Part shown: in pieces, positions 17,288-60,064 of the stretch
Layout of the letters: each line of letters starts with the position of its first letter
Numbering within the stretch: position 1 is the first letter of the stretch
Source: Xylanimonas protaetiae
GTDB taxonomy: Bacteria; Actinomycetota; Actinomycetes; Actinomycetales; Cellulomonadaceae
Assembly: GCF_004135385.1 (NCBI RefSeq)
Contig: NZ_CP035493.1
Span: 2,547,440 to 2,611,439, forward strand
Reading direction: 5' to 3'
DNA: 64,000 nucleotides
Translations under genes and position numbers: made by a program
Notes under the pieces: model-generated
What the model saw: the letters and a program-made list of their open reading frames with translations, nothing else
What the model was told of the DNA's origin: nothing
The model's database searches: none

Positions 17288-18334
17288 ATGTCCGACGACG
17301 ACGAGCGCAGCACGGCCGACCGCCACCTGCCCGTGCTCCTCCAGCGCTGCATCGACCTGCTCGCCCCGGCGCTGTCCGCACCGGGTAGCGTGCTCGTCGA
17401 CTGCACGCTCGGCATGGGCGGCCACACGGAGGGCGTGCTGGAGCAGCTGCCGCACGCCCGCGTGGTGGGCATCGACCGCGACCCGCAGGCGCTGCGGCTC
17501 GCGAGCGAGCGCCTGGCGCGGTTCGGCGACCGGTTCACGCCCGTGCACGCGGTCTACGACGAGATCGGCGACGTCGTCGCGCGCCTCGGGTACGCCGACG
17601 GCGTCCAGGGCGTGCTCATGGACCTCGGGGTCTCGAGCCTCCAGCTCGACGAGGCCGGGCGCGGCTTCGCGTACGCCCAGGACGCCCCGCTCGACATGCG
17701 CATGGACCAGACCACGGGCCTGACGGCGGCGGACGTGCTCAACACGTACGACGAGCACGAGCTGACCCGCATCCTGCGCGAGTACGGCGAGGAGCGGTTC
17801 GCGGGCAAGATCGCACGCTCGATCGTGCGGCGGCGGGTCGACAAGCCGTGGGAGCGCACGTACGAGCTCGCGGATCTTGTGCGGGCCTGTATCCCGGCGG
17901 CCACGCGCAAGACGGGCGGCAACCCGTCCAAGCGGACCTTCCAGGCGCTGCGGATCGAGGTCAACGGCGAGCTCGAGGTGCTCGAGCGGGCCGTGCCGGC
18001 CGCGATCGAGGCGCTCGCCGTGGGCGGCCGGATCGTCGTCGAGTCCTACCACTCGCTCGAGGACCGCATCGTCAAGCGCGCCATCACGCGCGGCACGACG
18101 TCGTCGGCACCGGCGGGCCTGCCCGTCGAGCCGGAGACGCACAAGGCCTACCTGGAGCCGCTCACGCGCGGCGCCGAGGAGGCCGACGCCGAGGAGCTGG
18201 CCCGCAACCCCCGCTCCGCGTCCGTGCGCCTGCGCGCCGCCGCCCGGCTGCGGCCGACGCCCGACCACCTGCGCACCACCCCGACCAGCAGGACCCGTTC
18301 CACCCGCACCACCCGCCAGGAGGACCGACGATGA
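17288..18334 (+). CDS. rsmH: 16S rRNA (cytosine(1402)-N4)-methyltransferase
   Basis: 348-residue SAM-dependent methyltransferase (formerly MraW) that modifies C1402 in the ribosomal P site. [16 protein letters not shown] opens the protein; the SAM-binding motif is [15 protein letters not shown] near residues 37-51, and the catalytic region [19 protein letters not shown] is intact. [17 protein letters not shown] and [14 protein letters not shown] are family hallmarks. It ends in a Thr/Arg-rich tail. ATG with GGAGG about 5 bases upstream. Its stop overlaps the ftsL ATG (ATGA). Confidence 0.96.
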
Positions 18335-18803
18335 GCGCTCTGCGAGCCCCCGCCTACGCTCCGAGCCGTCCGGCAGCGCCGGCGCGCCGCACCCGGCTGA
18401 CCGCCCTCGACGGCGGGCGCGTCGAGGGGCGGCGGTTCGCCGCCGTCCGCGCGCCCCTGCAGGCGCGTTCGGCGACCCCGTTCCTGGTCATGTGCGGCGC
18501 GCTCCTGGCCGGTGCCCTGCTCACGGTGCTCGTGCTCAACACGTCGATGGCGTACGGGTCGTTCGAGATGTCGCGCCTGCGGGGCGAGTCGAACCGGGTC
18601 GCGCAGGACATCCAGGTCAAGCAGCAGGCGCTCCGGACCGCCGAGAACGGCCTGGACGCGCGGGCGCGACGGCTCGGCATGGTGCCGAGCGAGGGCACCC
18701 AGATGCTCGACGTCACGGGCGCGCTCGCCGCGGCCGCACCGCTCACGGACGCCGGGCAGCCGCTCACGGACGCCGGGCAGCCGGACGCGGGGCGGGGCAG
18801 TGA
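18331..18803 (+). CDS. ftsL: Cell division protein FtsL, frameshifted by one missing base
   Basis: Small bitopic divisome protein that works with FtsQ/FtsB to activate FtsW-FtsI. An Arg-rich cytosolic N-terminus is followed by one transmembrane helix (about residues 50-72, [20 protein letters not shown]) and a short coiled coil ([19 protein letters not shown]). As given, the frame has no stop until 19284, running 0.4 kb into ftsI. Adding one G to the run at 18789-18792 ends the protein as PDAGAGQ at a TGA at 18801-18803, about 157 residues, with a GTGA overlap onto ftsI. Starts by ATGA overlap with rsmH; RBS AGGAGG. A 21-bp tandem duplication lies near the end. Identity is good, the frameshift repair is inference. 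Confidence 0.82.
18738..18779 (+). repeat. 21-bp in-frame tandem duplication in ftsL
   Basis: Two identical contiguous 21-base units encode PLTDAGQ twice in the periplasmic tail of FtsL. Frame is preserved. Confidence 0.85.
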
Positions 18804-20911
18804 CGGGGCGCGAGGCACCCGCGACACGCGGGCGCGCCTCGCGCCCGACGCAGGGGAGCGCCCCGCAGACTCGTGGGGTGAGCGCAGGCAGCGGACGGGC
18901 GACGCCCTCGTCGGCGCGCCCCGCGACAGGTGCTGCCCGGCAGCGCCAGGCCGCGCCCCCACGGCAGGCCGCAGCACCGGCCCGCGCCGCCGCAGGCCAG
19001 CTGCGACAGGGCGCGCGTCCGGCGTCCGCTCGCGACGCCGCGGCCACCGGGCGGACGCGGCAGGCCCGCACCCCCGGGCGCGCGACGGCCGTCTCCCGGT
19101 CCACCGGCACGCTCGAGCGGACCCGGGCACCGCGCCCGCCGCGCCGGGTCCCGGCCCCGGCCAACCCCGTCCGGCGGCAGCGCTGGCTGACCGTCCTCGC
19201 GGCGGTCGTCGTGACGATCTTCGTCGGCCGGCTGGTCCAGGTGCAGGTCTTCGAGGCGCCGGGCCTCGCCGCGCAGGCCCGTGACGGGCGCATGACCACG
19301 GTGAACGTGCCCGCGCACCGCGGCGACATCACGGACCGCAACGGCGTCGTGCTCGCGACGTCCGTGGACCGGTACACGATCTCGGCGGACCCGTGGGCGA
19401 TCCAGAAGTTCCGGGGCGGCAGCCGCACCGACGCGGCCGGCAGCCCCGTGGCCGACGGCGCGCTCGGCGTCGCCCAGCTGCTCGCGCCCGTGCTGGGGCG
19501 CGACCGGGCCGAGCTCGCGGCGCAGATCAACGGCGACAGCCGGTACGTGGTGCTGGCCCGCAACGTGGAGCCGGACAAGCAGCGCGAGATCAGCGCGCTG
19601 CGCCTGGCGGCGGTGATCCGCACCGAGCTCGTCTCCCAGCGGGTCTACCCGCAGAAGACCATCGCGGGCCCGCTCCTCGGCTTCGTCGACGCCGACCAGG
19701 TGGGCCAGGGCGGCCTCGAGCGCGCCTTCGACGACCTGCTCGCGGGCCAGGCCGGGTCGGAGACCTTCGAGCGCTCGCTCGACGGCGTCCGCATCCCGGG
19801 CGGCCAGTCGATGTCGACCCCCGCCGTGCCCGGCGGCGACGTCCAGCTGACGATCGACAGCGAGGTCCAGTGGAAGGCGCAGTCGTCGCTGGACGACATG
19901 GTCCGCAGGTCGGGGGCCGCGTTCGGCATCGCGCTCGTCGTGGACCTCCAGACCGGGGAGATGCTGGCGATCGCGGACTCCGGGTCGGTCGACCCGAACG
20001 ACCGCAGCAACGCCGACGTCGCCCGCGGCTCCCGCGCGGTGCAGGACATCTTCGACCCGGGCTCCACGGCCAAGGTGATCACGATGGCCGCGGCGCTCGA
20101 GACGGGCGCGTGGGCGGTCGACAGCCAGTTCACCGTGCCGTTCCGGTTCACGACGCCGAACGGCCAGTCCTTCCGCGACTCGCACGACCACCCGACGTGG
20201 AACCTCACGCTCGCGGGCATCCTGGCGCGGTCGTCCAACACGGGCACCGTGCAGGTCGCCGAGAAGATCCCGCCGCAGGTCCAGTACGACTTCATGCACA
20301 AGTTCGGCTTCGGCCAGCCCACGGGGCTCAACCTGCCGGGCGAGTCGAACGGCATCCTGCACCCCGTGGACCGCTGGGACGGGCGCACGCGCTACGCCGT
20401 CACGTTCGGCCAGGGCGTCTCCGTCAACGCAGTCCAGGCGCTGGACGTGTTCTCGACCGTCGGCAACGGCGGCGTGAACGTGCCCCCGGTGCTGGTCAAG
20501 GGCACGCGCGTCCCCGGCGGCGAGCTCGTGCCGACGGCGCGGGCCGCCGGCACGCGCGTCATCTCCGCGGAGACCTCCACGACGCTGCTGCACATGATGG
20601 AGGAGGTCACGGGCGAGGACGGCACGGCGGCGAGCGCCCAGATCCCCGGCTACCGCGTCGCGGGCAAGACAGGCACGGCGCAGATCATCATGCCGGGCAA
20701 GGCGACGACGTACATGTCGTCGTTCGTCGGCGTCGCGCCGGCGGACGCCCCGCGGTTCGCCGTCGGCGTGTTCCTCAAGAGCCCGCGGACCTCGATCTAC
20801 GGCGGCGTCGTCGCCGCGCCGGTGTTCCGCGACGTGATGAGCTTCGTCCTCCAGAAGGAGGGCGTCCCGCCGAGCGCGCCGGCCCCGGACCCGCTCCCGC
20901 TGACCTGGTGA
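18800..20911 (+). CDS. ftsI: Peptidoglycan D,D-transpeptidase FtsI (PBP3)
   Basis: Septal class B penicillin-binding protein, 703 residues from GTG 18800. A long Ala/Arg/Pro-rich cytosolic tail (about 128 residues) precedes the transmembrane helix WLTVLAAVVVTIFVGRLVQV. The dimerisation domain has HRGDITDRNGVVLATS. The transpeptidase domain carries all three active-site motifs: SxxK in DPGSTAKVI near residue 421, SSN in ARSSNTGT near 478, and KTG in VAGKTGTAQ near 622. There are no PASTA repeats. GTG 18800 forms a GTGA overlap with the repaired ftsL; GTG 18878 is an alternative start. FtsW, its glycosyltransferase partner, lies downstream in the same cluster. Confidence 0.93.
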   Translation: MTGREAPATRGRASRPTQGSAPQTRGVSAGSGRATPSSARPATGAARQRQAAPPRQAAAPARAAAGQLRQGARPASARDAAATGRTRQARTPGRATAVSRSTGTLERTRAPRPPRRVPAPANPVRRQRWLTVLAAVVVTIFVGRLVQVQVFEAPGLAAQARDGRMTTVNVPAHRGDITDRNGVVLATSVDRYTISADPWAIQKFRGGSRTDAAGSPVADGALGVAQLLAPVLGRDRAELAAQINGDSRYVVLARNVEPDKQREISALRLAAVIRTELVSQRVYPQKTIAGPLLGFVDADQVGQGGLERAFDDLLAGQAGSETFERSLDGVRIPGGQSMSTPAVPGGDVQLTIDSEVQWKAQSSLDDMVRRSGAAFGIALVVDLQTGEMLAIADSGSVDPNDRSNADVARGSRAVQDIFDPGSTAKVITMAAALETGAWAVDSQFTVPFRFTTPNGQSFRDSHDHPTWNLTLAGILARSSNTGTVQVAEKIPPQVQYDFMHKFGFGQPTGLNLPGESNGILHPVDRWDGRTRYAVTFGQGVSVNAVQALDVFSTVGNGGVNVPPVLVKGTRVPGGELVPTARAAGTRVISAETSTTLLHMMEEVTGEDGTAASAQIPGYRVAGKTGTAQIIMPGKATTYMSSFVGVAPADAPRFAVGVFLKSPRTSIYGGVVAAPVFRDVMSFVLQKEGVPPSAPAPDPLPLTW

Positions 20912-20986
20912 CGGCCCGCGCGTCTGCCCTGGCCGCCCCGCGTGGCGCGGTACGTCGAGGGCCTCGGAGGCGGCTCCGGGAACCGT

Positions 20987-20992
20987 TAGGGT
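20987..20992 (+). promoter_or_regulatory. -10 element of murE (leaderless)
   Basis: TAGGGT ends 7 bases before GTG 21000 and there is no RBS. It would give murE and downstream genes an internal promoter within the cluster. Confidence 0.65.
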
Positions 20993-20999
20993 CTACTCC

Positions 21000-30594: not shown

Positions 30595-31628
30595 GTGCGT
30601 CCCCCTGCCCGGCCCCGCGTGCCTCCGAAGCCAGCCGTCGCGAAGCCCGCGGCGCCGGCGTCGAGCCCCCGAGGCCCGCGAGGACCGGGACGACGCAGCA
30701 GGGTGCCCGGACCGAGGCGATCCCGCGGCCCGCGACGGGCACGAACCCCCGCACGGGAGCGAACCCGCGCACCGGCGCCGGCCCGCGCACCGAGGCCGTG
30801 CCGCGCCCCCGCACGGGGTCGGTCCCGCGGACGGGCTCCATCCCGCGGACCGGCTCGACCCCGCAGCCGCGCGGCCAGGTCCGCGGCCGCCCCACGGTCT
30901 CGACGGCGATGACGCGCCGTCTCGCCGAGAAGCGGGCGATGCGGCGCCACCGCGTGCTCAAGACGCTCTCCCTGTGGACCGCCGCGGCCGTCGCGCTCGG
31001 CGTCGTCGTCTGGGGTGCGTTCTTCTCGCCGCTGCTCGCCCTGGACGCCCAGCGCGTCGAGATCACCGGCCAGGGAACGACGATCGACGTCGCCCAGGTC
31101 CAGGCCGTCGTGGCCGAGAAGGCGGGCATGCCGATGCCGCGCCTCGACACCATCGACCTGCGCAACCGGATCCTCGAGCTGGGCGGTGTCAAGGACGTCA
31201 GGATCACGCGCGCCTGGCCGCACGGGCTCGGCGTGGCGCTCACGTCGCGCGAGCCCGTTGCGGCGGTCCCGGCCGACGACGGCGTCGCGCTCGTCGACGC
31301 CGACGGCGTCCGCGTGGGCACGGTGCCCGACCGGCCGGAGGGCCTCCCGGAGGTCCGGGTGGGCCTCGGCGCCGACGACGCGCCCGCGCTCCAGGCCGCG
31401 CTGCGCGTGCTCGCAGGCCTGCCGCCCGAGCTCGCGTCGCAGGTCACGCGCGTGACCGCGACCACGCGCGACGACGTCCAGACGACGCTCGCCTCGGGCC
31501 AGACCGTCAAGTGGGGGAGCGACCAGCGCATGGCGCTCAAGGTCGCCGTCGTCCAGACCCTGCAGCAGGCGGCGCCCGACGCGTCGGTGTACGACGTGCG
31601 GTCGCCGGACCTCCCGGTGACCCGTTGA
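30595..31628 (+). CDS. ftsQ: Cell division protein FtsQ, frameshifted by one missing base
   Basis: Bitopic divisome protein. The solid part, from residue 69 in the given frame, runs from GTG 30798 to 31628: basic stretch, transmembrane helix LSLWTAAAVALGVVVWGAFF, a POTRA domain (LLALDAQRVEITGQG, with VQAVVAEKAG) and an FtsQ beta domain. Upstream of 30798 the same frame stays open and continues PRTG-type repeats but has no start codon. Adding one C to the C5 run at 30666-30670 joins it to a GTG at 30595 (VRPPARPRVPPKP), giving about 344 residues with a long Pro/Arg/Thr-rich cytosolic tail. No ftsA follows. The repair is inference; GTG 30798 is the fallback start. Confidence 0.8.
30729..30860 (+). 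repeat. Degenerate 18-bp repeats encoding PRTGxx in ftsQ
   Basis: The cytosolic tail of FtsQ carries about six imperfect PRTG(A/S)x hexapeptides, encoded by 18-base units with synonymous differences. They extend upstream of GTG 30798, which supports an earlier true start. Confidence 0.7.
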
Positions 31629-35056: not shown

Positions 35057-35676
35057 ATGGCGCTGCTGACCGCAGAGGACATCCTCAACAAGAAGTTCGC
35101 GGCGACGAAGTTCCGCGAGGGTTATGACGTCGAGGAGGTCGACGACTTCCTCGACGAGGTCGTGCGCACCCTCTCCGCCGTGCAGGAGGAGAACGAGGAG
35201 CTGCGGTCCAAGCTTGCCGCTGCCGAGCGCCGCGTCGCGGAGCTCTCGCGGTCCGACGCCGCGGCCGCCGCCGCCCCGGCCCCCGTCGCGGCCGCTCCCG
35301 TGGCCGCCCCCGTGGCCCCGCCCCGAAGACGGCCGAGCCCGAGTCCGCCACCGGCATGCTCCAGCTCGCGCAGAAGCTGCACGACGACTACGTGCGCTCG
35401 GGCCAGGAGGAGGGCGACCGCCTCATCTCCGAGGCCAAGTCTGAGGGCTCCCGCATCGTGCGCGAGGCCGAGGAGACGAGCCACCGCACGCTCTCGCAGC
35501 TCGAGCAGGAGCGCTCGCTCCTGGAGCGCAAGATCGACGAGCTCCGCCTGTTCGAGCGCGACTACCGCACGCGCCTGAAGAGCTTCCTGCAGAACCTCCT
35601 CGGCGACCTCGACGCCCGCGGCTCGGCCCTGCCGTCCCGCAACGCGCAGGCGCAGGGTTCGACCCCGCAGCTCTGA
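35057..35676 (+). CDS. divIVA: Polar growth protein DivIVA/Wag31, frameshifted by one missing base
   Basis: Coiled-coil protein that marks cell poles and directs apical growth. The N-terminal DivIVA domain is in the first frame (MALLTAEDILNKKFAATKF, GYDVEEVDDFLDEVV) with an Ala/Pro linker; the C-terminal coiled coil is in another frame (MLQLAQKLHDDYVRSG, then LEQERSLLERKIDELRLF). One added C in GCCCCGAAG near 35321-35324 joins them as VAPPPKTAEPESATGMLQ, giving 206 residues. Both halves match the family well, so the protein is almost surely whole in the organism. RBS GAGGTGAAACG before ATG 35057. Followed by a large stem-loop. Confidence 0.9.
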
Positions 35677-36319: not shown

Positions 36320-36934
36320 ATGTCTACCGAACCCGACGCCACGCCCGTCGTCCCTGACCCCGCCGTGCCCGACGACGGTGCGGCGCCGCAGCCCGGCCGG
36401 CCCAGCCGTCGCCTGGTCGTCGCCACCTTCGCGCTCGCCGCGCTGGTGATCGCCGTGGACCAGCTCACGAAGCAGTGGGCGCTGTCCGCGCTCGAGCTCG
36501 GTGCGCCGCAGCGCAACCTCCTGGGCGAGTTCCTCTCGCTGCGCCTCGTGAAGAACCCGGGCGCCGCGCTCAGCATCGGGTACGGGTACACCTGGGTGCT
36601 GACGATCGTGGTGGTGGTCGTCGTGGCCGTCATCGTGCGCGTGATCAGCAGGATCCGCTCGCGGGCCTGGGCGGTGACGCTCGGCCTGCTGCTGGGCGGC
36701 GCCCTGGGCAACCTCGGTGACCGGCTGTTCCGCGAGCCGGGCTTCGCGCACGGGCACGTGGTCGACTTCATCGGCTACTGGAACTGGTTCACCGGGAACG
36801 TCGCAGACATCGCGATCGTCGTGGCCGCGGTCATGCTCGCCCTCCTGTCGCTCATGGGTGTCGGCCTCGACGGGACGCGCGAGTCGCACCAGGCCCCGGC
36901 GAAGGACGCCGCCGAGACCGGGCCCGAGGCCTGA
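36320..36934 (+). CDS. lspA: Lipoprotein signal peptidase (signal peptidase II)
   Basis: 204-residue membrane aspartyl protease that removes lipoprotein signal peptides. Four transmembrane helices; catalytic aspartates lie in [13 protein letters not shown] and [10 protein letters not shown]...FNVADI-type context (here [12 protein letters not shown]). The first helix has [13 protein letters not shown], and [12 protein letters not shown] is conserved. A Pro-rich cytosolic tail precedes the first helix. Its TGA overlaps the rluD ATG (TGATG). Substrates in this window include the lipoprotein at 48.1 kb and the protease at 59.3 kb. Confidence 0.95.
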
Positions 36935-37865
36935 TGGCGCTGCGGACCCTCCCGGTCCCCGACGGGCTCGCGGGCGAGCGCGTCGACGCGGCGCTGGCCC
37001 GCATGCTCGGGTTCTCGCGCACCCAGGCCGCCGACCTGGCCGCCGCGGGGCGGTGCTCCTCGACGGGCGGCCCGTCGGCAAGTCCGACCGCCTGACGGCC
37101 GGCTCGTGGCTCGAGGTGGACGTGCCCGACCCGTCGTCCGCGCCCGTCGTCGAGCCCGAGCCCGTGCCCGGCATGGGCATCGCCTACGAGGACGACGACG
37201 TCGTCGTCGTGGACAAGCCCGTCGGGGTCGCGGCGCACCCGTCGCCCGGCTGGACGGGGCCGACGGTCGTCGGCGCCCTGGCCGCCGCCGGCTACCGCGT
37301 GTCGACGTCGGGGGCCGCCGAGCGGCAGGGGATCGTGCACCGGCTCGACGTCGGGACGTCGGGGCTCATGGTCGTCGCCAAGAGCGAGGCCGCGTACACG
37401 GGGCTCAAGCGGGCCTTCAAGGAGCGGACGGTCGAGAAGGTGTACCACGCGCTCGCGCAGGGGCACCCGGAGCCGACGGTCGGCACGATCGACGCGCCCA
37501 TCGGGCGGCACCCGTCCAACGACTGGCGGTTCGCCGTCGTCGCGGACGGCAAGCCGTCGGTGACGCACTACGAAGTGCTCGAGATGCTCCCCGCGGCGTC
37601 GCTCGTCGAGGTGCACCTCGAGACGGGGCGCACGCACCAGATCCGCGTGCACTTCTCCGCGGTGCGCCACTCGCTGGTGGGCGACCTGACCTACGGCGCC
37701 GACCCGGTGCTCGCCTCGCACACCGGGCTGACCCGGCAGTGGCTGCACGCCGTGCGGCTCGGGTTCGAGCAGCCGGTGACGGGGGAGTGGGTGTCGGTGA
37801 CGTCGGAGTACCCGCAGGACCTGGCGGCCGCGCTCGAGACCGTCCGGGGTGCCTACGGTGGCTGA
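36934..37865 (+). CDS. rluD: RluA/RluD-family 23S rRNA pseudouridine synthase, frameshifted by one missing base
   Basis: Makes pseudouridine in 23S rRNA. The N-terminal S4-like part is in frame with ATG 36934 ([32 protein letters not shown]); the rest is in another frame: [16 protein letters not shown], then the catalytic [16 protein letters not shown] with its essential Asp, and [12 protein letters not shown]. Adding one G to the G4 run at 37047-37050 gives [15 protein letters not shown] and a 310-residue protein. The local context GCGGGGCGG is the same as at the ftsL break. Downstream of lspA, as in most actinobacteria. Confidence 0.9.
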
Positions 37866-44588: not shown

Positions 44589-45095
44589 GTGCCGGTCTTC
44601 GTGCTTCTGACCGGGATGTCCGGGGCGGGCAAGACGGCGGCGCTGCGCGGGCTCGCGGCCCGCGGGCACGCCACCGTCGACCTCGACTACGACGGCTACT
44701 CGACGCTCGTGCGCGCGCCGGACCAGCCCGTGGGGTGGGCGCAGCTGTGGGACCTGGCCAAGGTCCGGGCACTCATGGACGCGCACCGCGCGGGACCGCT
44801 GTTCCTTGCTGGGACGGCGCGCAACCAGCCGGAGCTCTACGACCGGGTCGACGCCGTCGTCCTCCTCACGGCGCCACGCGACGTGTTGCTCGCGCGGATC
44901 GAGGCGCGCACGGACAACCCGTACGGCAAGGACGCCGCCGGACGCGCGCAGATCGAGCACGACATCGACGTGGTCGAGCCGGTGCTGCGGGCCGGCGCGA
45001 GCCACGTCGTCGCGACCGACCGGCCGGAGGCCGAGGTCGTGGCGGAGCTCGAGCGCCTTGTCGCTCCGTGGGGCGGCGGTACGGCGCCCGCGTAG
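44589..45095 (+). CDS. Small P-loop NTPase (shikimate-kinase-like)
   Basis: 168 residues. Walker A is GMSGAGKTAALRGLAARGH near residue 9, followed by VDLDYDGYSTLVR; the fold resembles small nucleoside/shikimate kinases, with a LID-like PYGKDAAGRAQI. No specific substrate motif is seen. GTG 44589 is chosen for GGAGAGGAG 6 bases upstream; an in-frame GTG at 44514 would add 25 residues. Downstream of hisD by 88 bases; a functional link is not evident. Confidence 0.75.
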   Translation: MPVFVLLTGMSGAGKTAALRGLAARGHATVDLDYDGYSTLVRAPDQPVGWAQLWDLAKVRALMDAHRAGPLFLAGTARNQPELYDRVDAVVLLTAPRDVLLARIEARTDNPYGKDAAGRAQIEHDIDVVEPVLRAGASHVVATDRPEAEVVAELERLVAPWGGGTAPA

Positions 45096-45147
45096 GCGAC
45101 GTACCGCCCCACGCCGCGCGACGAGCCGGTGCGGGTGCGCGGTGTGC

Positions 45148-46230
45148 CTAGACGGTCGTCGGCGCGCGGTCGTCGGCGTCGGCGTCGGTGGACGTGGCGT
45201 CGGTGGCGTCGGCGGGCGAGCCGTCCGCCGACGCGCCCTTGCCTGCCGCTCCTCGGCGGCGTCGCGCCACCACGATCCCGGCGGCGACGAGCACGAGGAG
45301 CACGAGGAGCGGGACCCCGGGCGTCGTCCAGCCGTGCGCGACGCCTGCGACGGCGTCGAGCGGCTGGACGGACCCGCCGGCGTCGGCGAGCAGCGGCGTG
45401 AGCGTGACGGACGCCGCCAACGGCCCGAGCGCCCGGACGCCGTGGACGGGCACGGTGACCTTCCAGGTCTCGCCGGGCAGCAGCTCGGGGGAGTCGTCGA
45501 CCTCCGCGGCGGCGACACGCGCGGCGCCGAACGGGCCGGCGACCGAGACCGCCGAGTGGGCGGCGAGCGCGGCGTCGCCCGAGTTGCGGATCGTGTAGGT
45601 GACCGTGGCGTCCTGCGCACCGATCCCGGCGGTGAGGGCCGGGGCGTGCACGTGCGCGTCCTCGACCGTCAGCCCGGGCCGCAGCGCCCCGCCGACGCGC
45701 ACGCGCACCTCGAGCGCGATCCGACGCTCGACGCGGGTGCCGTCCTGCGCGGTCTCCTCGCGCGAGGTCACGACGCCGCCGACGTGGTCGCCGGGCGTCG
45801 CGCCGGCCGGGACGCGGAGCGTGAAGGGAACGTCGGCGGACTGGCCCGGGGCGACGGTGACCGTCGTGCCTCCGGTGCTCAGCCAGGCGCCGACACCGGT
45901 CGCGTCCTCGCCGTCGGTGCGCAGGTCGAGGTGGCCGTCGGCCGTGGTGAAGGCGTCGGCGGCGTAGACGGCGAGCGTCATGGGGTCGGTGCCCGGGTTG
46001 TGCACCTCGAACCCGTCCGTGATTGCCTCCCCATGGTTCGCGGCGTACTCGAAGTGCTGGCGTCCCGAGCCGAAGTCGTTGTTCGCGGTGGTGACCGACC
46101 ACGGCGGGGTCTCGTCGTCGGCGGCGAGCGCCGGGGCGGCGGTGGCGACGAGTGCGGCGGTGGCGAGGAGCGCGGCGAGCCCGCGGCGGGCGTGCGCCCG
46201 CGCAGGCGCCGGGAAGGTCGTGGTGGACAT
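45148..46230 (-). CDS. DUF916-like secreted, membrane-anchored protein
   Basis: 360 residues. A signal peptide (about 1-40, RRGLAALLATAALVATAAPALAAD) is followed by a beta-rich domain resembling DUF916 (WxL-interacting type): FEVHNPGTDPMTLAVYAADAF, GAWLSTGG, VPFTLRVPAGATPGDHVGGVV. A second beta domain follows, then a transmembrane helix near residue 305 (VPLLVLLVLVAAGIVVARRR) and a cytosolic tail rich in Asp/Ala/Thr. Probably a surface protein that binds peptidoglycan or partners. ATG 46230 has GAGAG 9 bases upstream; ATG 46239 is an alternative. No WxL protein is seen nearby. Confidence 0.75.
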   Translation of the reverse strand: MSTTTFPAPARAHARRGLAALLATAALVATAAPALAADDETPPWSVTTANNDFGSGRQHFEYAANHGEAITDGFEVHNPGTDPMTLAVYAADAFTTADGHLDLRTDGEDATGVGAWLSTGGTTVTVAPGQSADVPFTLRVPAGATPGDHVGGVVTSREETAQDGTRVERRIALEVRVRVGGALRPGLTVEDAHVHAPALTAGIGAQDATVTYTIRNSGDAALAAHSAVSVAGPFGAARVAAAEVDDSPELLPGETWKVTVPVHGVRALGPLAASVTLTPLLADAGGSVQPLDAVAGVAHGWTTPGVPLLVLLVLVAAGIVVARRRRGAAGKGASADGSPADATDATSTDADADDRAPTTV

Positions 46231-46325
46231 GGTCGTCATCTCTCGGGTCGGTGCGGCGGGATGGGCGCCCGGCACGGCAGGCGGAGCGCTGACGCACCCC
46301 GCCCGCCGCGCCGGGAACGGCCGGG

Positions 46326-47897
46326 TCAGGACAGCGAGGTCACCGTGAACCGCGCGTCGCCCCAGCTGCCGAAGCCATGCTTGGTCGAGATCCAGCCGGA
46401 CGGGAACGGCCCACGGAAGTGGTGCTTGTCCCCGGGCTGCTTGATCGTCACCTGGTCGACGACGGAGCCGACCGGGCGGGCAGGGCTGGCGCCCGAGTCC
46501 GGGCCGCACCACGGCACCTTGCCGTTGACGACGGCCGAGTTCGGGTAGGCGCACGTGCCCGAGACGAGGTTCTGGACGACGAGCTTGTCGCCGTGCACCT
46601 CGACCTTGACGTACGTGCGCACGTGCTCCTGGTTCTCCACCGAGTTGGCCCAGTGGTTGTCAGGGTTGAGCGGGTCCGGCCCGTAGCTCGGGTCCGCCGT
46701 CGTGTCGGGGTCGGTCAGGTCGTAGTACTTCGACCCGGACGCCGAGTTGGCCGTCACATAGATGACGCCGCCGGGGCCCTGCGTGACCGAGGTCTGGCCG
46801 GGCTTCTCGTTCGCGTCCGCCTTCGCGCCGTTCTTGATGAGGTACGAGCGCGAGTAGCTGTGGTCGTGGCCCTGGAGCACGAGGTCGACGCCGAGGTTCG
46901 AGAACGCCGTCGGGAAGTCCTGGCGGCGCTGCTGGTTGTCCTTGTCGTTCGCGTGGTCCGCAGGCGAGTAGATCGAGTGGTGGTAGACGAGCACCGTGTA
47001 CTTCGCGTCGTCGCCGTGCTGGCCGATGACGTCGGTGACGTAGCCGATGTGGGCGGCGTCGGCACCGTTGGCGTAGGCGTTGCTGTTCAGGTCGATGAAC
47101 AGCACGTCCTTGTAGATGAACCAGTAGTCGCCGCCGGAGGTGGTGTCCGCGTTGCTCGCGTAGAACGCGCTCGAGCGGTCGGTGTTCGGCGTCCACAGGT
47201 GCTGCTCGTACGCCTTGCCGCCGACGTCGTGGTTGCCGATGGTGGCGACCCACGGGTAGGCGCGCAGCTGGTTCGGGGCCAGGAAGGCGTTCCACTGGTC
47301 CTCGTTGTTGGCGGTCTCGATCTGGTCGCCGCCCGAGACCAGCAGCTCCGACCTGGGGTTGGCCTTGAGCGCGACGTCGAGCGTGTCCGCCCAGCCCGCG
47401 CCGTCCTGAGCCACGTCGCCCGACGACCCGATCTGCGGGTCGCCGAAGAACAGGAAGTCGAAGTCGCCGCTGAACGTCCGGGTCGTGAACGACTGCACCG
47501 GCGACCACGAACCCTCGGCGCCGACGCGGTAGGAGTACGCCGTGTTCTGCTTCAGGCCGTAGATCGTGGCGTGGGCGTTGTAGCCGCCGTTGACCTTGTT
47601 GGCCGCGACGACAGCGGTGAAGGTGGCCGCGTCGTCGGGGAACGCGCCGCGGCGCAGCTTCGACGTCGGCACGACCTGGACGACCTGGGCCGCGAGGCTC
47701 GACGTGTACCAGCTCACGACGCGCTGCGACTCGCTGGCACCGACGCCGAGGATGACCCCGGTCGTCGTGACCGTGGCGTCCGCGGCGGCGGCGCCGGCGC
47801 CGGCGACCCCGCCGAGCACGAGCCCGGCAGCGGTGACTGCTGCGGCGGCGCACGTGGCGATGCGGCGCCGCAGTGAGAGATGGAGATTTCCGTGCAT
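46326..47897 (-). CDS. Secreted purple-acid-phosphatase-like metallophosphoesterase
   Basis: 523 residues with a signal peptide ending near AGAAAADA (about residue 40). An N-terminal fibronectin-like domain (VVSWYTSS, TIYGLKQNTAYSYRVG) is followed by the dinuclear metal phosphoesterase domain with FFGDPQIGSSGD, LLVSGGDQIE, TIGNHDVGG, LVYHHSIYSP and GHDHSYSRSY, the complete metal-ligand set. Likely scavenges phosphate outside the cell. ATG 47897 has GGAGGG 8 bases upstream. Same strand as the DUF916-like gene, 95 bases away. No Pho box was recognised. Confidence 0.88.
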   Translation of the reverse strand: MHGNLHLSLRRRIATCAAAAVTAAGLVLGGVAGAGAAAADATVTTTGVILGVGASESQRVVSWYTSSLAAQVVQVVPTSKLRRGAFPDDAATFTAVVAANKVNGGYNAHATIYGLKQNTAYSYRVGAEGSWSPVQSFTTRTFSGDFDFLFFGDPQIGSSGDVAQDGAGWADTLDVALKANPRSELLVSGGDQIETANNEDQWNAFLAPNQLRAYPWVATIGNHDVGGKAYEQHLWTPNTDRSSAFYASNADTTSGGDYWFIYKDVLFIDLNSNAYANGADAAHIGYVTDVIGQHGDDAKYTVLVYHHSIYSPADHANDKDNQQRRQDFPTAFSNLGVDLVLQGHDHSYSRSYLIKNGAKADANEKPGQTSVTQGPGGVIYVTANSASGSKYYDLTDPDTTADPSYGPDPLNPDNHWANSVENQEHVRTYVKVEVHGDKLVVQNLVSGTCAYPNSAVVNGKVPWCGPDSGASPARPVGSVVDQVTIKQPGDKHHFRGPFPSGWISTKHGFGSWGDARFTVTSLS

Positions 47898-48120
47898 CAG
47901 GAATCCCTCCGGGAAAGTGGCATGACCAGAGGAGACCCCCCGGCCGGTGCCAGGGTCTTGGTCTCCGGTGTCTTCCGGGTGAACCGTCCCTGAAGACTGG
48001 GTGGGTCCGGTGCGAACATTGCCTCCGTCACCGGTCCGTGCGTCATGAGGCGGCGGGAGGGGCCGGTGCGACGGTGTAGAAAGGTGCCGCCCGTCCCGCA
48101 CTCCGAAGGACCTGTGACCC

Positions 48121-48804
48121 GTGCGCCCCATCTCCCTCGTCCGTGTCCTGCCGGGCATCGTCGCGACCGTCGCGCTCGCCGCGGGCTGCGCGTCGCAGGC
48201 CGACTGGTCGGACCCTCACCCCGCGCCGACCGCCGTCGGGGCGCTGGCCCCGGGCTTTCACGACGCGGCGTCGCCGCCCGCGCCCGAGAGCACGATCGCG
48301 CCCGCCGCAGGCTCGTGGGACGACGTCCACCCGCCGCGCGGCTATCGCGTGCTGCTGGTCTCGGCCGCCGACGACACGCCGTCGAGGACGCTCGAGACGG
48401 CCGTCACCCGGTGGGCGTCCGCGGAGCACGTCGACCTGCGCACGATGCACGTGAGCGACCTCGGCGAGCACTCGCGCGCGCCGCTCGAGGCCGTCATGAC
48501 GGCGACCGAGCAGCACGCGGACCTGGTGGTGACCGTCGGAAACGTGCTCGTCACGCCGGTCGCGCTCGTGGCCGCCGACCACCTCGACCAGCAGTATCTC
48601 GTCGTCGGCGCGCAGCTGGACGAGCCGACGGGCAACGTCACGGCCGCCGTCTGGGACGGGGCCGGGTTCCGCGGCGACGGCCTGGACCCGTCGTCGAAGG
48701 ACGACCCGGCGTCCTTCACCTCGCAGCGCACGGCCGCCGCCCTGCGCGCCGGGGTCGCCAGCGTGCTGTCGGGGCTCCGGGGCATCGTCGTCTGGCTCCG
48801 GTAG
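48121..48804 (+). CDS. Lipoprotein of unknown function (BMP/PnrA-like)
   Basis: 227 residues. Signal peptide with a lipobox at VALAAGC (LAAG-C near residue 22), so a lipid-anchored protein processed by LspA. The mature part begins with a Pro/Ala-rich stretch and a Rossmann-like region (YRVLLVSAADDTPSRTLETAV, ATEQHADLVVTVGNVL, LDQQYLVVGAQLDEPTGN) weakly resembling substrate-binding proteins of the BMP/PnrA class. It is shorter than a normal periplasmic binding protein. Start GTG 48121 is in a poor RBS context (AGGA 10 bases away). Role unknown. Confidence 0.7.
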   Translation: MRPISLVRVLPGIVATVALAAGCASQADWSDPHPAPTAVGALAPGFHDAASPPAPESTIAPAAGSWDDVHPPRGYRVLLVSAADDTPSRTLETAVTRWASAEHVDLRTMHVSDLGEHSRAPLEAVMTATEQHADLVVTVGNVLVTPVALVAADHLDQQYLVVGAQLDEPTGNVTAAVWDGAGFRGDGLDPSSKDDPASFTSQRTAAALRAGVASVLSGLRGIVVWLR

Positions 48805-48886
48805 GGCGACGTTCTCCCGGCGGTCGCCCCGCGGACGCCCCGGGTTCACGTGCGTCGGGCACTGTCGGGGCGACCGAAGGAGCACG

Positions 48887-50338
48887 ATGACCACCCAGCC
48901 CGTCCGCACGCCGTCCGCCTCGCGCCGCCCCGCGCGGACCCTGCTCGCCCTGCTCGGGGCGGCGCTCGCGACGGCGGCCGCCGTCGTCGGGCCGTCCGCC
49001 CCCGCGACCGCGCACGGCTTCTCGTCCGTCGCCTACGTCGACGCGACCACGACACCCGACGGCGTCGTGCGTACCGCGATCGACCTCGAGTACGACCTGC
49101 TCGTGGTCTCGGCGGCCGACGCCCAGCACGACGACGCGCTGTTCGAGGACGGCGACGGGGCGTTCCAGGCGACCGACGACGCCACGGCCCTCGCCGCAGC
49201 GCTGCACCGCCACGCCGAGACCGTCGTCGCCTACGTGACGCGACGCTTCTCGGTCGAGACGCCGCAGGACGCGTGCACACCCGACCCTGCGGGCGACCTG
49301 ACCGTGCACTGGCGCGACGTGCCGTACGCGACGCTCACGCTGGACTGGACCTGCCCGGCCGGCTTCGCTGCGAACCGGCAGCTCGAGGAGGGCGCGCACG
49401 TCGTCCACGGCGGGCACGTCGTGCGCAGCGGGCTGTTCCCCGACGCCGAGGGTTACGTCACCGGGACCAAGACGATCGTCACCTATGACCTCGACGACCG
49501 GACGGGCAGCGCCGCGCTGGACGCGTCGCGGCCGGAGTTCTCCACCGAGCAGACCCTGCCCCAGCGGTTCGCGGAGTTCTTCTCGCTCGGGGCCTTGCAC
49601 CTGCTGACCGGGCTCGACCACATCCTGTTCCTGGTCGCCCTCATCGTCGGCTCGCGGCGGCTGCGCGACGTCGTGCTCGCCGCGACGTCGTTCACCGTGG
49701 CGCACTCGGTGACGTTCGTGCTCGCCGCGCTCGGCGCGGTGCACGTGTCGTCGGACTTCGTGGAGCCGACCATCGCGCTGTCCATCTCCGCCGTGGCGGC
49801 CTGGCACCTGTGGCGGACGTGGGCGCGCCGCCGCCCCGTGCAGGACTCTCTCGCCGCGCCCACGGGACCGCTCGGCCTGGACGGCGCGGACTGGTTGCGG
49901 TTGGCGGTCGTCTTCTGCTTCGGCCTGGTGCACGGCCTCGGCTTCGCCGGTGCCCTGGGCATCGACGCCGCCTGGTCCTGGTCGCTGCTGTGGTCGCTGC
50001 TCGTGTTCAACGTGGGGATCGAGGCGGTGCAGCTCGGCATCATCGCCGTCGTGTTCCCGCTGCTCGCACTCCTGGGCCGCCGCTCGCCGGTAGTGGGCAC
50101 GGTGGTCGGTGCGGTGGTCGCCGCCGCGGTGAGCGTGGTCGGGCTGGTGTGGTTCGGCGAGCGGGTCACGTGGACGACACCGTGGCCGCAGCTCGCCGGG
50201 GTGGCCGCCGCAGCCCTGCTCGCCGGGGGCGTCGTGCTCGTCAGGCGCCGCACGCGGGCCCGGGCCGGAGCGGCGGCGGACGTCGCGCCGGCGCGAGAGC
50301 TGCCCAAGCCGACCGTGGGTGCCGCGCCCCGTCCGTGA
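48887..50338 (+). CDS. HupE/UreJ-like membrane protein
   Basis: 483 residues. A signal peptide (about 1-42, ending ATAHG) is followed by an extracellular region of about 180 residues with two cysteines (DACTP, WTCPAG) and then about seven transmembrane helices. The HupE/UreJ-type motif is HLLTGLDHILFLVAL near residue 236, with TVAHSVTFVLAALG and LVHGLGFAGALG. Relatives are implicated in nickel/cobalt uptake, but no hydrogenase or urease genes are in the window, so the substrate is unknown. ATG 48887 has AAGGAG 5-8 bases upstream. Confidence 0.8.
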   Translation: MTTQPVRTPSASRRPARTLLALLGAALATAAAVVGPSAPATAHGFSSVAYVDATTTPDGVVRTAIDLEYDLLVVSAADAQHDDALFEDGDGAFQATDDATALAAALHRHAETVVAYVTRRFSVETPQDACTPDPAGDLTVHWRDVPYATLTLDWTCPAGFAANRQLEEGAHVVHGGHVVRSGLFPDAEGYVTGTKTIVTYDLDDRTGSAALDASRPEFSTEQTLPQRFAEFFSLGALHLLTGLDHILFLVALIVGSRRLRDVVLAATSFTVAHSVTFVLAALGAVHVSSDFVEPTIALSISAVAAWHLWRTWARRRPVQDSLAAPTGPLGLDGADWLRLAVVFCFGLVHGLGFAGALGIDAAWSWSLLWSLLVFNVGIEAVQLGIIAVVFPLLALLGRRSPVVGTVVGAVVAAAVSVVGLVWFGERVTWTTPWPQLAGVAAAALLAGGVVLVRRRTRARAGAAADVAPARELPKPTVGAAPRP

Positions 50339-50349
50339 CGGCCTCGGGT

Positions 50350-51224
50350 TCAGTCTGTCGCGATCGCGTCCCCCAGCCGGGCGACCGCGTCCGCGACCGT
50401 CGAGCCGAGCCAGATCCCGTCGTTGTGCCGCGCGCCCTCGACGACGACGTGCTCGAACAGGTTCCCGGCCGCCGCCACGGCGTCGCTCTGCGCGGCCGGG
50501 ACCACCTCGTCGGCCGAGCCCTGGATCACGGTCACCGGGACGTCGCTCGCGGCGACCTGCTCGGCGACGGGGAAGTGGTTCCGGTCCATGATGAAGCGGA
50601 CGAGCGGCGGGACGGGGATCAGCGTGGCGCCGACGTCGTGCAGCGAGGTGAAGGGCGAGCGCAGCACCAGGCCGCCCGGCGGCTGCTCGACGGCAAGCCC
50701 GGAGACGACACCGGTGCCGATGGACTCGCCGAGGTAGATGGTCTGGCCGGCGGGGAAGCCGCGCACCTCGAGCTCGCGCTGTCCGGCCAGCGCGTCCCGC
50801 AGCAGCCCGGCCTCGGACGGCGTCCCGGGGTTCTGCGCGTACCCGCGGTACCCCAGCATGAGCACCGCGAAGCCTCGTTCGGCGAGCTCGCGCGCCAGGG
50901 GTGCGCGGCCGGAGGCGTCGCCGCCGTTGCCGTGGGCGAGGAGGACGGCCTGATCGCGCGCGTCCGAACCCGGGTGTGGCGGCACGAACCACGAGGCGAG
51001 GTCGTACCCGTCGGACGTGGTCAGGGTGACGTCCTCGGCCCACGGCAGCACGCTCGCCGCCGGGGGAGGGCCGCCCGTCCCGGGTGGAAGGCGAGGGTGT
51101 GCTGCATCGCGCGGCCACAGAACGCGAGCCCGACGCCGCACAGCACCACCAGGCACGCGGCGATCAGGGCGCGCGAGAGCTTGCCTCGCCGTCTGTCGCC
51201 GGACCGTGTCGTGCTCCGTGCCAC
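50350..51224 (-). CDS. Membrane-anchored alpha/beta hydrolase, frameshifted by one missing base
   Basis: Two frames must be joined. The 5' part (GTG 51224) encodes a basic start, one transmembrane helix LIAACLVVLCGVGLAFC and AMQHTLAFHPG; the remainder gives TGGPPPAASVLPWAEDVTL, then the hydrolase core with oxyanion HGNGGDASGR, nucleophile elbow YLGESIGTGV (GESIG), Asp in QGSADEVVP and His in EGARHND. One base inserted at CCC/GGG near 51079-51084 restores about 291 residues. RBS GAGAGG 6 bases before GTG 51224. Substrate is unknown; the YqkD/BAAT-type family is likely. Confidence 0.8.
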
Positions 51225-51234
51225 CGTGTGCCTC

Positions 51235-55444: not shown

Positions 55445-56043
55445 TGGGTCGCACCGCCCGCATCGAACGGTCCACCAGCGAGTCGCGCGTCCTCGTCGAG
55501 ATCGACCTGGACGGCACGGGCCGCACCGACATCTCGACGTCGGTGCCGTTCTACGACCACATGCTCACCGCGCTGGGCAAGCACTCGCTCATCGACCTCA
55601 CGGTCAAGGCGACGGGCGACACGCACATCGACGCGCACCACACCGTCGAGGACACCGCGATCGTGCTGGGCCAGGCGCTCAAGCAGGCGCTCGGCGACAA
55701 GGCGGGCATCAGCCGCTACGGCGACGCCACCGTGCCGCTCGACGAGGCGCTCGCGCTCGCCGTGGTCGACGTGTCCGGGCGCCCCTACCTCGTCCACGAG
55801 GGCGAGCCGGCCGGCCAGGAGTACCACCTCATCGGCGGCCACTTCACCGGCTCGCTGACCCGCCACGTCCTCGAGTCCCTCGCGCACCACGCGGGCATCT
55901 GCCTGCACGTGCGCGTGCTCGCCGGCCGCGACCCGCACCACATCGTCGAGGCCCAGTTCAAGGCCCTCGCGCGCGCCCTGCGCGCCGCCGTCGCCCTCGA
56001 CCCGCGGGTCGAGGGCGTCCCGTCCACCAAGGGAGCACTGTGA
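55444..56043 (+). CDS. hisB: Imidazoleglycerol-phosphate dehydratase
   Basis: 199-residue stand-alone HisB, without the phosphatase domain of the enterobacterial fusion. Metal-binding motifs: [31 protein letters not shown] and [28 protein letters not shown], where the histidine clusters bind Mn. Starts by TGATG overlap with hisC and ends overlapping the next GTG. Confidence 0.96.
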
Positions 56044-56540
56044 CCGAGGACTTCCCGGACGACCTCGTCATCCCTGACGACCTCTCGTCTCTCACCGCCC
56101 CGAAGGGTGCCGAGCTCGCCGTCCTGCTCACGCAGGTCGCCGACGCCGAGGCGCTCGCCGCCGCCTGCGCGCTCGCCGAGCTCGACGTCGACGCCGTCCC
56201 GACGCCCGTGGGCGCGCTCGCGGTGCTGCGCGACCCGTCGGGCGACGCACCCGAGAAGGCCGCCGCGGCCGTCTCGCAGCTCGTGTCCGGCGCCGCGCTC
56301 GTGCTCGTGACGCGTGCCGAGGGGCAGCTCACGTGCGTGCGCTACGACGGCGGCGTCGCCGAGGGGAACCTGCCGCCCGGCCTCGTGCTCTCGGGTGCGC
56401 CCGAGGCGCTCGAGGACCTGCTGACGGGCCAGCTCTCGGTCGCGGACCTGCCCGGGGGCATCGCCTCGGGCGGCATCGGCCGGTTCAAGGCCATGCGCAT
56501 GCTCACGGGCATCGCGCGGAAGGCCAAGAAGTCCCAGTGA
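56040..56540 (+). CDS. Conserved unknown protein in the his operon
   Basis: 166 residues, lacking any recognised domain. It begins acidic ([18 protein letters not shown]), then a repeated alpha/beta pattern ([51 protein letters not shown]), a [16 protein letters not shown] segment and a basic end ([18 protein letters not shown]). No signal peptide or membrane helix. It overlaps both hisB (GTGA) and hisH (GTGA), so it is fully within the operon and probably produced in step with histidine enzymes. I do not recognise a function. Confidence 0.75.
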
Positions 56541-57271
56541 GCCTGCCCCCGCTGCTCCCCGACGGCGGCGCGTCCGCCGAGCTGAACGCCCGCCCCGTGC
56601 GCCCCGCGCGCGACGACCGCCCCGACGTCGTCGTGCTCGACTACGGGTTCGGCAACGTCCGCTCCGCCGTGCGCGCCCTCGAGCGCGTGGGCGCGCAGGT
56701 CGAGCTCACCGCCGATCGCGAGCGGGCGCTCGAGGCCGACGGCCTGGTGGTGCCGGGCGTCGGCGCGTTCGCCGCCTGCATGGCCGGGCTGCGCGCCGTC
56801 CGCGGCGACCAGGTGGTCGGGCGCCGCCTCGCCGGCGGCCGCCCCGTGCTCGGCATCTGCGTCGGCATGCAGGTCATGTTCGCCCACGGCGTCGAGCACG
56901 GCGTCGACACCGCGGGCCTGGGGGAGTGGGACGGCGTCGTCGAGCGCCTCGACGCCCCCGTCGTCCCGCACATGGGCTGGTCCACGGTCGAGGCACCGGC
57001 CGGCACACGCCTGTTCGCGGGCGTCGAGCACGAGCGCTTCTACTTCGTGCACTCCTACGCGGCGCAGGCCTTCACGCAGGGTCACGACGACGCCGCCACC
57101 CCCCGCTTCACCCCGCCGCTCGTGACGTGGGCCCACCACGGCACCCCCGAGCACGGGGCCCGCTTCGTCGCGGCCGTCGAGGACGGCCCGCTCGCCGCCA
57201 CCCAGTTCCACCCCGAGAAGTCGGGCGACGCGGGGGCGACCCTGCTTGAGAACTGGGTCACGTCCCTCTGA
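56537..57271 (+). CDS. hisH: Imidazole glycerol phosphate synthase glutaminase subunit
   Basis: 244 residues. Class I glutamine amidotransferase: [19 protein letters not shown] at the start, [10 protein letters not shown], catalytic Cys in [11 protein letters not shown], and the His/Glu of the triad in [16 protein letters not shown] 56537 gives an N-terminal extension of about 33 residues before the family core. The synthase partner hisF is not in the operon seen here and must be elsewhere. Overlaps the preceding gene by GTGA; priA follows 11 bases later. Confidence 0.94.
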
Positions 57272-57282
57272 TCGGAGATCCC

Positions 57283-58014
57283 ATGATCGACCGCCTCGTG
57301 CTCCTGCCCGCCGTCGACGTCGCCGACGGCCAGGCCGTCCGCCTCGTCCAGGGCGAGGCCGGCTCCGAGACCTCGTACGGCGACCCGCTGACGGCCGCGC
57401 TCGACTGGCAGTCCGGCGGCGCCGAGTGGGTCCACCTCGTGGACCTCGACGCCGCGTTCGGCCGCGGCTCCAACGCGGAGCTGCTCGCCGAGGTGGTCGG
57501 CAAACTCGACGTGCAGGTGGAGCTCTCGGGCGGCATCCGCGACGACGAGTCCCTCGAGCGCGCGCTCGACACGGGCGCCCGCCGCGTCAACATCGGCACG
57601 GCCGCGCTCGAGAACCCGGAGTGGACCGCGAGCATCATCGAGAAGTACGGCGACCTGGTGGCCGTCGGCCTCGACGTGCGCGGCACGACGCTCGCCGCGC
57701 GCGGCTGGACGAAGGAGGGCGGCGACCTCTGGGAGGTGCTCGCCCGCCTCGACGAGGTCGGCTGCGCCCGCTACGTCGTCACCGACGTCACCAAGGACGG
57801 CACGCTGCGCGGCCCGAACGTCGACCTGCTGCGCGAGGTCGCCTCGCGCACCGACGCGGCCGTGGTCGCCTCGGGCGGCATCTCCTCGCTCGACGACCTG
57901 CGCGCGCTGCGCGAGCTCGTCCCGGCGGGCGTCGAGGGCGCCGTCGTCGGCAAGGCGCTGTACGCCGGGGCGTTCACGCTCCCCGAGGCGCTCGACGTCG
58001 CGGGCCGGCCGTGA
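57283..58014 (+). CDS. priA: Phosphoribosyl isomerase PriA (HisA/TrpF bifunctional)
   Basis: 243-residue TIM barrel. Catalytic aspartates are in [15 protein letters not shown] and [12 protein letters not shown], and [12 protein letters not shown] and [11 protein letters not shown] are phosphate loops. The loop [16 protein letters not shown] carries Arg and Trp in RGW, the residues that let actinobacterial PriA also isomerise phosphoribosylanthranilate in tryptophan synthesis. If so, a separate trpF may be absent. Ends overlapping the sseB GTG (GTGA). Confidence 0.93.
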
Positions 58015-58799
58015 CGCACGCGCACGACGAGGCCGCCGAGGGCCGGGCCCTGCCCGGCCACCTGCGGTCCATCCAGCCGACGTCGCAGTTCGCCGGCGAC
58101 GACGGGACGGCGGACCCCGAGCTCGCGGTGCTGCTCGCAGGGTACGAGGGCGGCACGGTTCCGCTGCGCGACGTCGTGGCGCGGCTGGCCGTGACCCGCG
58201 TGCTCGTGCCCGTGCTGGCCGAGATCGAGGTCGCCGAGGCGGTCGTGGTCGACGGGCAGGAGCTGCACGTCGACAAGGAGGCGTCCTCGGGCGTCGTCGC
58301 GCTCGAGGCGCCGGACGGGCGCCGCGCGCTGCCCGTGTTCACGAGCGTCGAGACCATGCGGGCGTGGCGCGCGTCCGCCCGCCCCGTCCCCGTGGAGGCC
58401 GCCCGCGCGGCGCTCTCCGCGGTGGGCGAGGACTGGTCGCTGCTCGTGGTCGACCCGGCCGGCCCGGTCACCGTGACGGTGCCGCGGCCCGCCGTGTGGG
58501 CGCTCGCGCAGGGCAAGGAGTGGGCGCCCGCCCTCGTCCCGACGGCCGACGGCCTGGTCGTCGACGACGAGGTCGTCGCGGCCGTGCGCCTGGCCGCCGA
58601 GCCCGTGCAGCACGTCGTGCGGGTCGGCGCGCAGCCGGGCCGCACGGCCGAGGTCGCCGTCGTGCTGGCCATCGACGCCGGCCTCGACCGCGCGGGGCTC
58701 GACGGCGTCCTCACGCAGGTCAACGCCCGTCTCGGCGCCTCCGACGTCGTCGCCGAGCGCGTCGACTCCCTCGAGCTGCGGATCGCCGCCGCCCGGTGA
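58011..58799 (+). CDS. SseB-family protein
   Basis: 262 residues. SseB-type N-terminal domain, with [46 protein letters not shown] in the conserved part and [27 protein letters not shown] later, and a C-terminal region [20 protein letters not shown]. Commonly annotated SseB in the actinobacterial his region; function is not known. GTG 58011 overlaps the priA stop. Confidence 0.8.
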
Positions 58800-58848
58800 C
58801 CTCGTGCGGCCGCCGTCCGCTGACCTCGTGCCCGCGGTCCGGCGGCGG

Positions 58849-58854
58849 TACGGT
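58849..58854 (+). promoter_or_regulatory. -10 element of VOC gene (leaderless)
   Basis: TACGGT ends 7 bases before ATG 58862. Confidence 0.55.
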
Positions 58855-58861
58855 CCCTCCC

Positions 58862-59278
58862 ATGGTCGCCTTCGTCTCGCACGTCACCGTCGACTGCCGC
58901 AACGCCTACGAGCTCGCCCAGTGGTGGAAGCCCGTGCTCGGCTACCAGGACGACCCCGACGACCCCAACCAGCCGGGCCAGGCCGAGTGCGTCATCGTCG
59001 ACCCGGCGGGCCAGGGCGTGAGCGTCCTCTTCATCGAGGTCCCGGAGCCGCGGACCGTCAAGAACCGCGTGCACCTGGACCTGCGCCCCGCGCAGGACGC
59101 CCGCGACGTCGAGCTGGAGCGCCTGCTGGCCCACGGAGCCACCGTCGTCCAGGACCACCGGGGCATCTCCGGCCCGGGCACGGGCTGGGTGTGGCTCGCC
59201 GACCCGGAGGGCAACGACTTCTGCATCCTGCGCTCCCCGGCCGAGCTGGCCGCAACGGCCCCGCCGAGCGGGTCCTGA
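58862..59278 (+). CDS. VOC (glyoxalase-like) superfamily protein
   Basis: 138 residues with two beta-alpha-beta-beta-beta modules: VSHVTVDCRNAYELAQWWKPVLGY, then RVHLDLRPAQDARDVELERLLAHGA, and WVWLADPEGNDFCILRSP. Possible metal ligands are His in VSHVTVD, His in RVHLDL and Glu in PEGNDFC, but the substrate is unknown. This pattern is typical of small glyoxalase-like proteins in actinobacteria. Leaderless start at ATG 58862. Converges on the protease gene. Confidence 0.85.
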   Translation: MVAFVSHVTVDCRNAYELAQWWKPVLGYQDDPDDPNQPGQAECVIVDPAGQGVSVLFIEVPEPRTVKNRVHLDLRPAQDARDVELERLLAHGATVVQDHRGISGPGTGWVWLADPEGNDFCILRSPAELAATAPPSGS

Positions 59279-59286
59279 GCAAGGTC

Positions 59287-59316
59287 GGTCAGGAGCAGGG
59301 CGGTCAGGAGCAGGGC
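59287..59316. repeat. 15-bp tandem duplication spanning the protease stop codon
   Basis: GGTCAGGAGCAGGGC is repeated twice without spacer (59287-59301, 59302-59316). It duplicates the last codons and stop of the minus-strand protease. Confidence 0.85.
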
Positions 59317-60064
59317 GTCACGGGCGTGAACGCGCTCGTGTCGGCGAGCATCGCCCGCAGGGTCGACACGGGCACCAGCAGCGACCGCCCGTCGTCCGTC
59401 TTGGCGTAGACGACGCCGACGACGCGGCCCGCGGCGTCGAGCGCGGCCGACCCGGAGGACCCCGGCTCCACGCGCGCGTCGGTGACGAGCACCTGGCCGA
59501 GGTTCTCGTGGAGCGGGTCGTTCTGCGTCCCGATGACCTTGCCCTGCGTGACGGTGAGGGCGCCGCCCTCGGGGTACCCGACGACGGTGACCGGGTCGCC
59601 GAGGCGAGGGTCGTCGTCGGCGAGGGTCGGCGCGGACGGCAGCGCGTCGGTGGTGCGCACCACGGCGAGGTCCGCGAGGTTGGCGGTGCTCGCCGTCTCG
59701 ACCTCGACGTCCCGGCCGTCGTACGTGCTGACCTGGAGCGTCGCGGCGTCGGCGACGACGTGGCGGTTGGTGATGAGCGTGTTCGCGTCGATCGCGAACC
59801 CGGAGCCCGTCGACAGCTGCCCGCAGCCGATGTTGCGGACGCGCACGGCCATGCGCTGGACGGCGTCGAACCCGTCGGGGGACAGGGCCGCGGCGTCGGA
59901 CGGGGCGATCGACGGCGCGACGGCGCCGGCGCCCGGCACGAGGTCGCTGGCGGCGACCTGCGACGGCTCGGCGGACGGCAGCGTCGGGAAGGGGGCACGG
60001 CGCCGCACCCGCTGAGGGCGGCGGCCAGCGTCACCCCGAGCAGCGCGCGGGCGCGACGCCTCAC
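59304..60064 (-). CDS. Trypsin-like serine protease lipoprotein, frameshifted by one missing base
   Basis: The GTG at 60064 opens a lipoprotein signal (VRRRARALLGVTLAAALSGCGA) in one frame; the mature protein is in the next, starting PFPTLPSAEPSQ. One added C in the C5 run (plus-strand GGGGG at 59991-59995) unites them as VPPFPTLPS, giving about 253 residues. The protease domain has GSGFAIDANTLITNRHVV (His), Asp in LADLAVVRTTD and Ser in VEPGSSGSAALD, the HtrA/trypsin triad. No PDZ domain. Start overlaps the preceding stop by GTGA. Membrane-anchored substrate processing is inferred. Confidence 0.85.

Follow-up and report, generated by a model that had tools for sequence, protein, structure and literature searches.

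Frame breaks near G and C runs in the Xylanimonas protaetiae genome sequence very probably reflect homopolymer under-calling in the assembly

In long-read bacterial assemblies, single-base deletions in homopolymers, mostly after stretches of four to five, fragment genes, as described in the part of the Kastor paper drawn on here (PMC12007338). RefSeq maintains an exclusion class termed 'many frameshifted proteins', over half of which is tied to Ion Torrent in the portion of the RefSeq account used here (PMC7604302). Within the genus, the Xylanimonas cellulosilytica genome is a finished one, built from Sanger and 454 data, with an error of <1 in 100,000 and 42 pseudogenes stated in the relevant section of its report (PMC3035249). 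Searched by title, the Xylanimonas literature yielded a genome report for this species only, among the matches listed.

The genome studied here, that of Xylanimonas protaetiae (G000), is one contig of 3,859,980 bases with a completeness score of 99.88. The window, i.e. the whole 64,000-base stretch that was analysed, spans its positions 2547440-2611439. It was compared with the corresponding syntenic regions (64 kb) in four congeners, the mean identity over aligned parts being 82.8-85.4%; the genus set comprised 10 genomes besides G000. We use the finished X. cellulosilytica genome (G002) and G010 as clean congeners, while G001 is a congener with the same fault as G000. A MurG search of the named records placed Xylanimonas oleitrophica, a Promicromonosporaceae MAG and Xylanimicrobium pachnodae at the top (best 80 of 372).

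A sequence-only reading of the window had proposed that ftsL, ftsQ, divIVA, rluD, a hydrolase gene and a protease gene each require one frame change and are one base short, and this was confirmed for all six. Four of the sites were placed by frameshift-aware protein-to-DNA alignment with open reading frames of the four congeners, and each was one base short. The divIVA gene (35057..35676, + strand) changes frame at 35304-35319 according to 4/4 congeners. The two DivIVA halves were returned as separate matches in a search of the genome itself, and on either side of the break they are 97-100% identical to G002. The gene for the rluD-type pseudouridine synthase (36934..37865, + strand; PseudoU_synth_2) changes frame at 37046 with 3/4 congeners; the fourth, G001, is itself broken, at another codon. 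In the alpha/beta hydrolase gene (50350..51226, - strand, the start probably lying at ~51226; Hydrolase_4), the change maps to 51060-51066 with 4/4 congeners, the G001 query being a fused ORF that arises from G001's own breaks. The trypsin-like protease gene (59304..60064, - strand; Trypsin_2) changes frame at 59987-59990 with 2/4 congeners. One of its frames gives LSGCGAVPP and the neighbouring frame gives FPTLPSAEPSQ; the N-terminus appears to carry a lipobox-like motif. Plain tblastn likewise split divIVA, rluD and the hydrolase gene over two frames each. The break positions quoted earlier stood in so far as the frame changes exist, but the hydrolase break lies 13-19 bases away from the 51079 given for it.

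For ftsL and ftsQ, the frame change was located by frame reading. Neither gene was flagged by the frameshift-aware screen; in both, the break sits in a variable terminus. In ftsL (18331..18803, + strand), the change falls in the C-terminal tail, between ~18735 and 18797: the body frame stays open beyond the expected end, and a GAGQ* ending (stop 18801-18803) is present in a different frame. In the four congeners, FtsL ends in AGQ* or AGR*, and this ending overlaps the start of ftsI. The same tail holds an in-frame tandem 21-base duplication (18739-18780) that is absent from the congeners' FtsL. In ftsQ (30595..31628, + strand), the change falls in the N-terminal linker, within a bracket of ~30640-30790. 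The four congeners share the N-terminus VRPPA(R/K/Q)PRVP in the same frame as the body; by hand reading, the window gene has a start motif of this type at GTG 30595, in a frame that differs from that of its body, where Pfam identifies FtsQ_DivIB_C and POTRA_1. A near-repeat run occupies positions 30760-30870 of the linker (PRTGSVPRTGSIPRTGSTP). Pfam names FtsQ, DivIVA, pseudouridine synthase, Hydrolase_4 and Trypsin_2, but the FtsL piece and the 37-aa N-terminal piece of RluD gave no match in the Pfam search, and the second half of DivIVA scores under the Pfam cut-off.

Two other parts of the window were inspected. The infC gene (61.4-62.5 kb) was considered as a further break and rejected: in G000, as in the four congeners, its open frame extends further upstream than the first ATG. 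This gene (61472-62503; IF3_C) probably uses a start codon other than ATG (ATC or ATT), and ORF callers therefore shorten it. The stretch 44600-50340, with purple acid phosphatase-like, HupE/UreJ and WxLIP_PGBD-domain genes, has no alignment of >800 bases, the only size listed, to the syntenic parts of the congeners, except that G010 aligns to 45040.

The proteins of G000, G001, G002 and G010 were aligned to one another's DNA over 400 kb around the window, excluding proteins >1800 aa or <45% identity. With G000 as target, 16/246 genes needed a frame change using G002 queries, 18/233 using G010 and 22/226 using G001. The corresponding figures for G001 as target were 40/230, 36/232 and 41/253, and for the clean pair G002/G010 they were 1/238 and 2/238. 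Queries from the faulty genomes raised the counts in clean targets (G002: 9/246 and 13/234; G010: 8/232 and 14/256) because a broken query makes an intact target seem broken. A break was accepted only if backed by at least 2 of 3 congeners, which removed most such artefacts and left 15 breaks in G000, 43 in G001, one in G002 and one in G010 (221,817 to 240,156 covered coding bases). All 15 breaks in G000 are of the missing-base type, as are 41/43 in G001; by our arithmetic, 15/15 of one sign has a chance of ~6e-5. The G001 breaks, in its syntenic 400 kb (L168-L187), are ~2.6x denser per covered base than those of G000, and occur at different sites. Clusters backed by a single relative were dropped in about equal number from clean and faulty genomes (G000 25, G002 31, G010 27, G001 30). 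As the two-relative rule also loses ftsL, ftsQ and the protease gene, 15 is a lower bound.

A codon-usage frame model, which is weak near gene ends and misled by overlapping genes, served solely to check dispersed stretches. Across 20 such stretches of 20 kb, missing-type and extra-type events numbered 12/4 in G000, 4/2 in G002, 5/4 in G010 and 40/4 in G001. In the contiguous G000 stretch the model gave 15 missing-type and 5 extra-type events, compared with 2 and 4 extra-type events in the controls.

Comparison with relatives, asked for in the sequence-only reading, revealed that the breaks are not shared: 14/15 sites are backed by all three congeners, and the 15th, in rluD, by two. The ftsL-rluD interval was also scanned in 80 named loci using 1203 gene tests with G010 proteins, G002 proteins being required to agree; short loci cover the interval in part. 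No breaks were found in 79/80 of these loci. The only exception was L019 (Luteimicrobium album NBRC 106348), with 4 breaks at 1345, 3119, 12113 and 18794, all missing-type and near G/C runs of 4-5.

Breaks in G000 lie close to G/C runs. A run of >=4 occurs within 16 bases of 14/15 breaks (random 0.196) and a run of >=5 within 16 bases of 8/15 (random 0.039), leaving 1/15 without any nearby run above 3. For G001, the equivalent counts are 38/41 and 16/41. The runs near G000 breaks are short, from 3 to 5. Intact G/C runs in the same DNA number 22 of length 6, 284 of length 5 and 1324 of length 4, which would imply a loss of ~27% of 6-runs, 2% of 5-runs and 0.1% of 4-runs, on the assumption that whichever nearby run is longest lost the base. 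Per 100 kb, runs of six bases number 13.5 and 12.0 in G000, 22.8 in G002, 18.8 in G010 and 18.2 in G001; this depletion is weak evidence because G001, with more breaks, resembles the clean G010, and A/T runs of 3 are likewise rarer in G000. One-gap placement put 2/15 G000 breaks on a run of >=4 and did not localise another 2/15. Such placement fails because, in relatives, most intact runs are interrupted as well (12/13 placed intact 6-runs are interrupted in G002). The earlier suggestion of an exact missing base for each gene thus stands as regards the one-base deficit, but the base itself cannot be fixed from relatives, and break sites are therefore given as brackets.

The best internal test of run under-calling is a comparison of rRNA copies. 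G000 has 3 LSU and 3 SSU genes, which were aligned together with those of three congeners. Its copies differ at 4 columns (3 LSU, 1 SSU), in each of which a G or C run is one base shorter in 1-2 copies, and there are no substitutions. G001 has 5 run-length columns, confined to the copies from a single operon, as well as 2 substitutions. One of these run-length columns lies in TACCCCGGGGATAA, presumably part of the peptidyl-transferase region. The G010 copies show no differences, and those of the finished G002 genome show 5 substitutions and 1 T indel.

Homopolymer under-calling, as the sequence-only reading had proposed, is supported by breaks that extend beyond the window, have one sign, lie near G/C runs and occupy unshared sites, and by run-length differences among rRNA copies. 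From these sequence comparisons we judge that the frame breaks are very probably absent from the organism, and that the assembly calls G/C runs too short. The consensus would shorten G and C runs, more often in longer runs, and every base dropped from GC-rich coding sequence would shift the frame. The cause may be a consensus left uncorrected, with a single long-read technology as its probable source, and raw reads would be expected to show longer runs. Pointing the other way are the lack of a six-run deficit in G001, the scarcity of A/T runs of 3 in G000, the one-gap placement of only 2/15 breaks on a run of >=4, the single G000 break without a run above 3, and the 5 extra-type events of the frame model. 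The breaks could instead be real mutations, in a lineage that is losing genes or is a mutator, and the frames are indeed broken in the printed sequence. Such true pseudogenes are difficult to reconcile with the genes affected: ftsL, ftsQ and divIVA are usually essential, and a search of G000's own genome found no second divIVA or ftsQ, and no second intact rluD, only a 29% paralogue. A mixture of break kinds is not seen among the 15, the DivIVA halves have remained at their high identity to G002 either side of the break, and the rRNA copies vary solely in run length. We regard true pseudogenes as highly improbable.

The proximity of breaks to runs, together with the continued conservation of both halves, would also suit real breaks that are read across, with programmed frameshifting or RNA polymerase slippage at G/C runs yielding whole proteins. 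The congeners are unbroken at these sites, as is the ftsL-rluD interval of 79/80 named loci, and there is therefore no conserved frameshift signal; moreover, the runs are only 3 to 5 long, and rRNA, which is untranslated, has the same fault. Read-across is thus barely credible, and we give next to no weight to a lineage that crosses short G/C runs by RNA polymerase or ribosome slippage and so tolerates breaks even in division genes. Phase variation was rejected, since no long hypermutable tract is present and the longest G/C run near any G000 break is 5. A reading confined to ftsL, ftsQ and the protease gene is that natural variation of the terminus, with an alternative start or stop, mimics a break. 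Frameshift-aware alignment left ftsL and ftsQ unflagged and 2/4 congeners flagged the protease gene, and the ftsQ body has a GTG of its own at 30798. In all three genes, however, conserved termini sit in the neighbouring frame, making such variation very unlikely. Under-calling thus remains the preferred reading: errors of sequencing or assembly at G/C runs almost certainly produced the breaks, and the genes are therefore probably whole in the living organism.

Extrapolating from 15 breaks in 221,817 bases, and taking the coding DNA to total 3.4 Mb, we expect at least ~230 false frame breaks (Poisson range ~130-380) across the whole G000 genome; this figure, by our own arithmetic, is a lower bound because the two-relative rule misses three of the six genes in the window. 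Any gene list or essential-gene comparison based on G000 or G001 would contain many false pseudogenes, including core division genes, despite the completeness of 99.88 for G000, and the finding is useful as a quality flag for both genomes. Within-genome comparison of rRNA copies, combined with a tally of missing- and extra-type breaks set beside that of clean congeners, offers a quality check that needs no reads.

The phenomenon is an ordinary data-quality problem that belongs to an already-described error class. As in the Kastor example, single-base deletions lead to false frameshifted genes; in that example (59% GC, nanopore), as far as the part of the paper drawn on goes, A/T stretches dominate, whereas the breaks in G000 lie near G/C runs (PMC12007338). 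The RefSeq class of 'many frameshifted proteins', in the portion of its description used here, is similar in that homopolymer length errors give rise to false pseudogenes (PMC7604302). G001 and the Luteimicrobium album locus L019 resemble G000 in having missing-type breaks (41/43 and 4/4, respectively) near G/C runs, at sites that differ.
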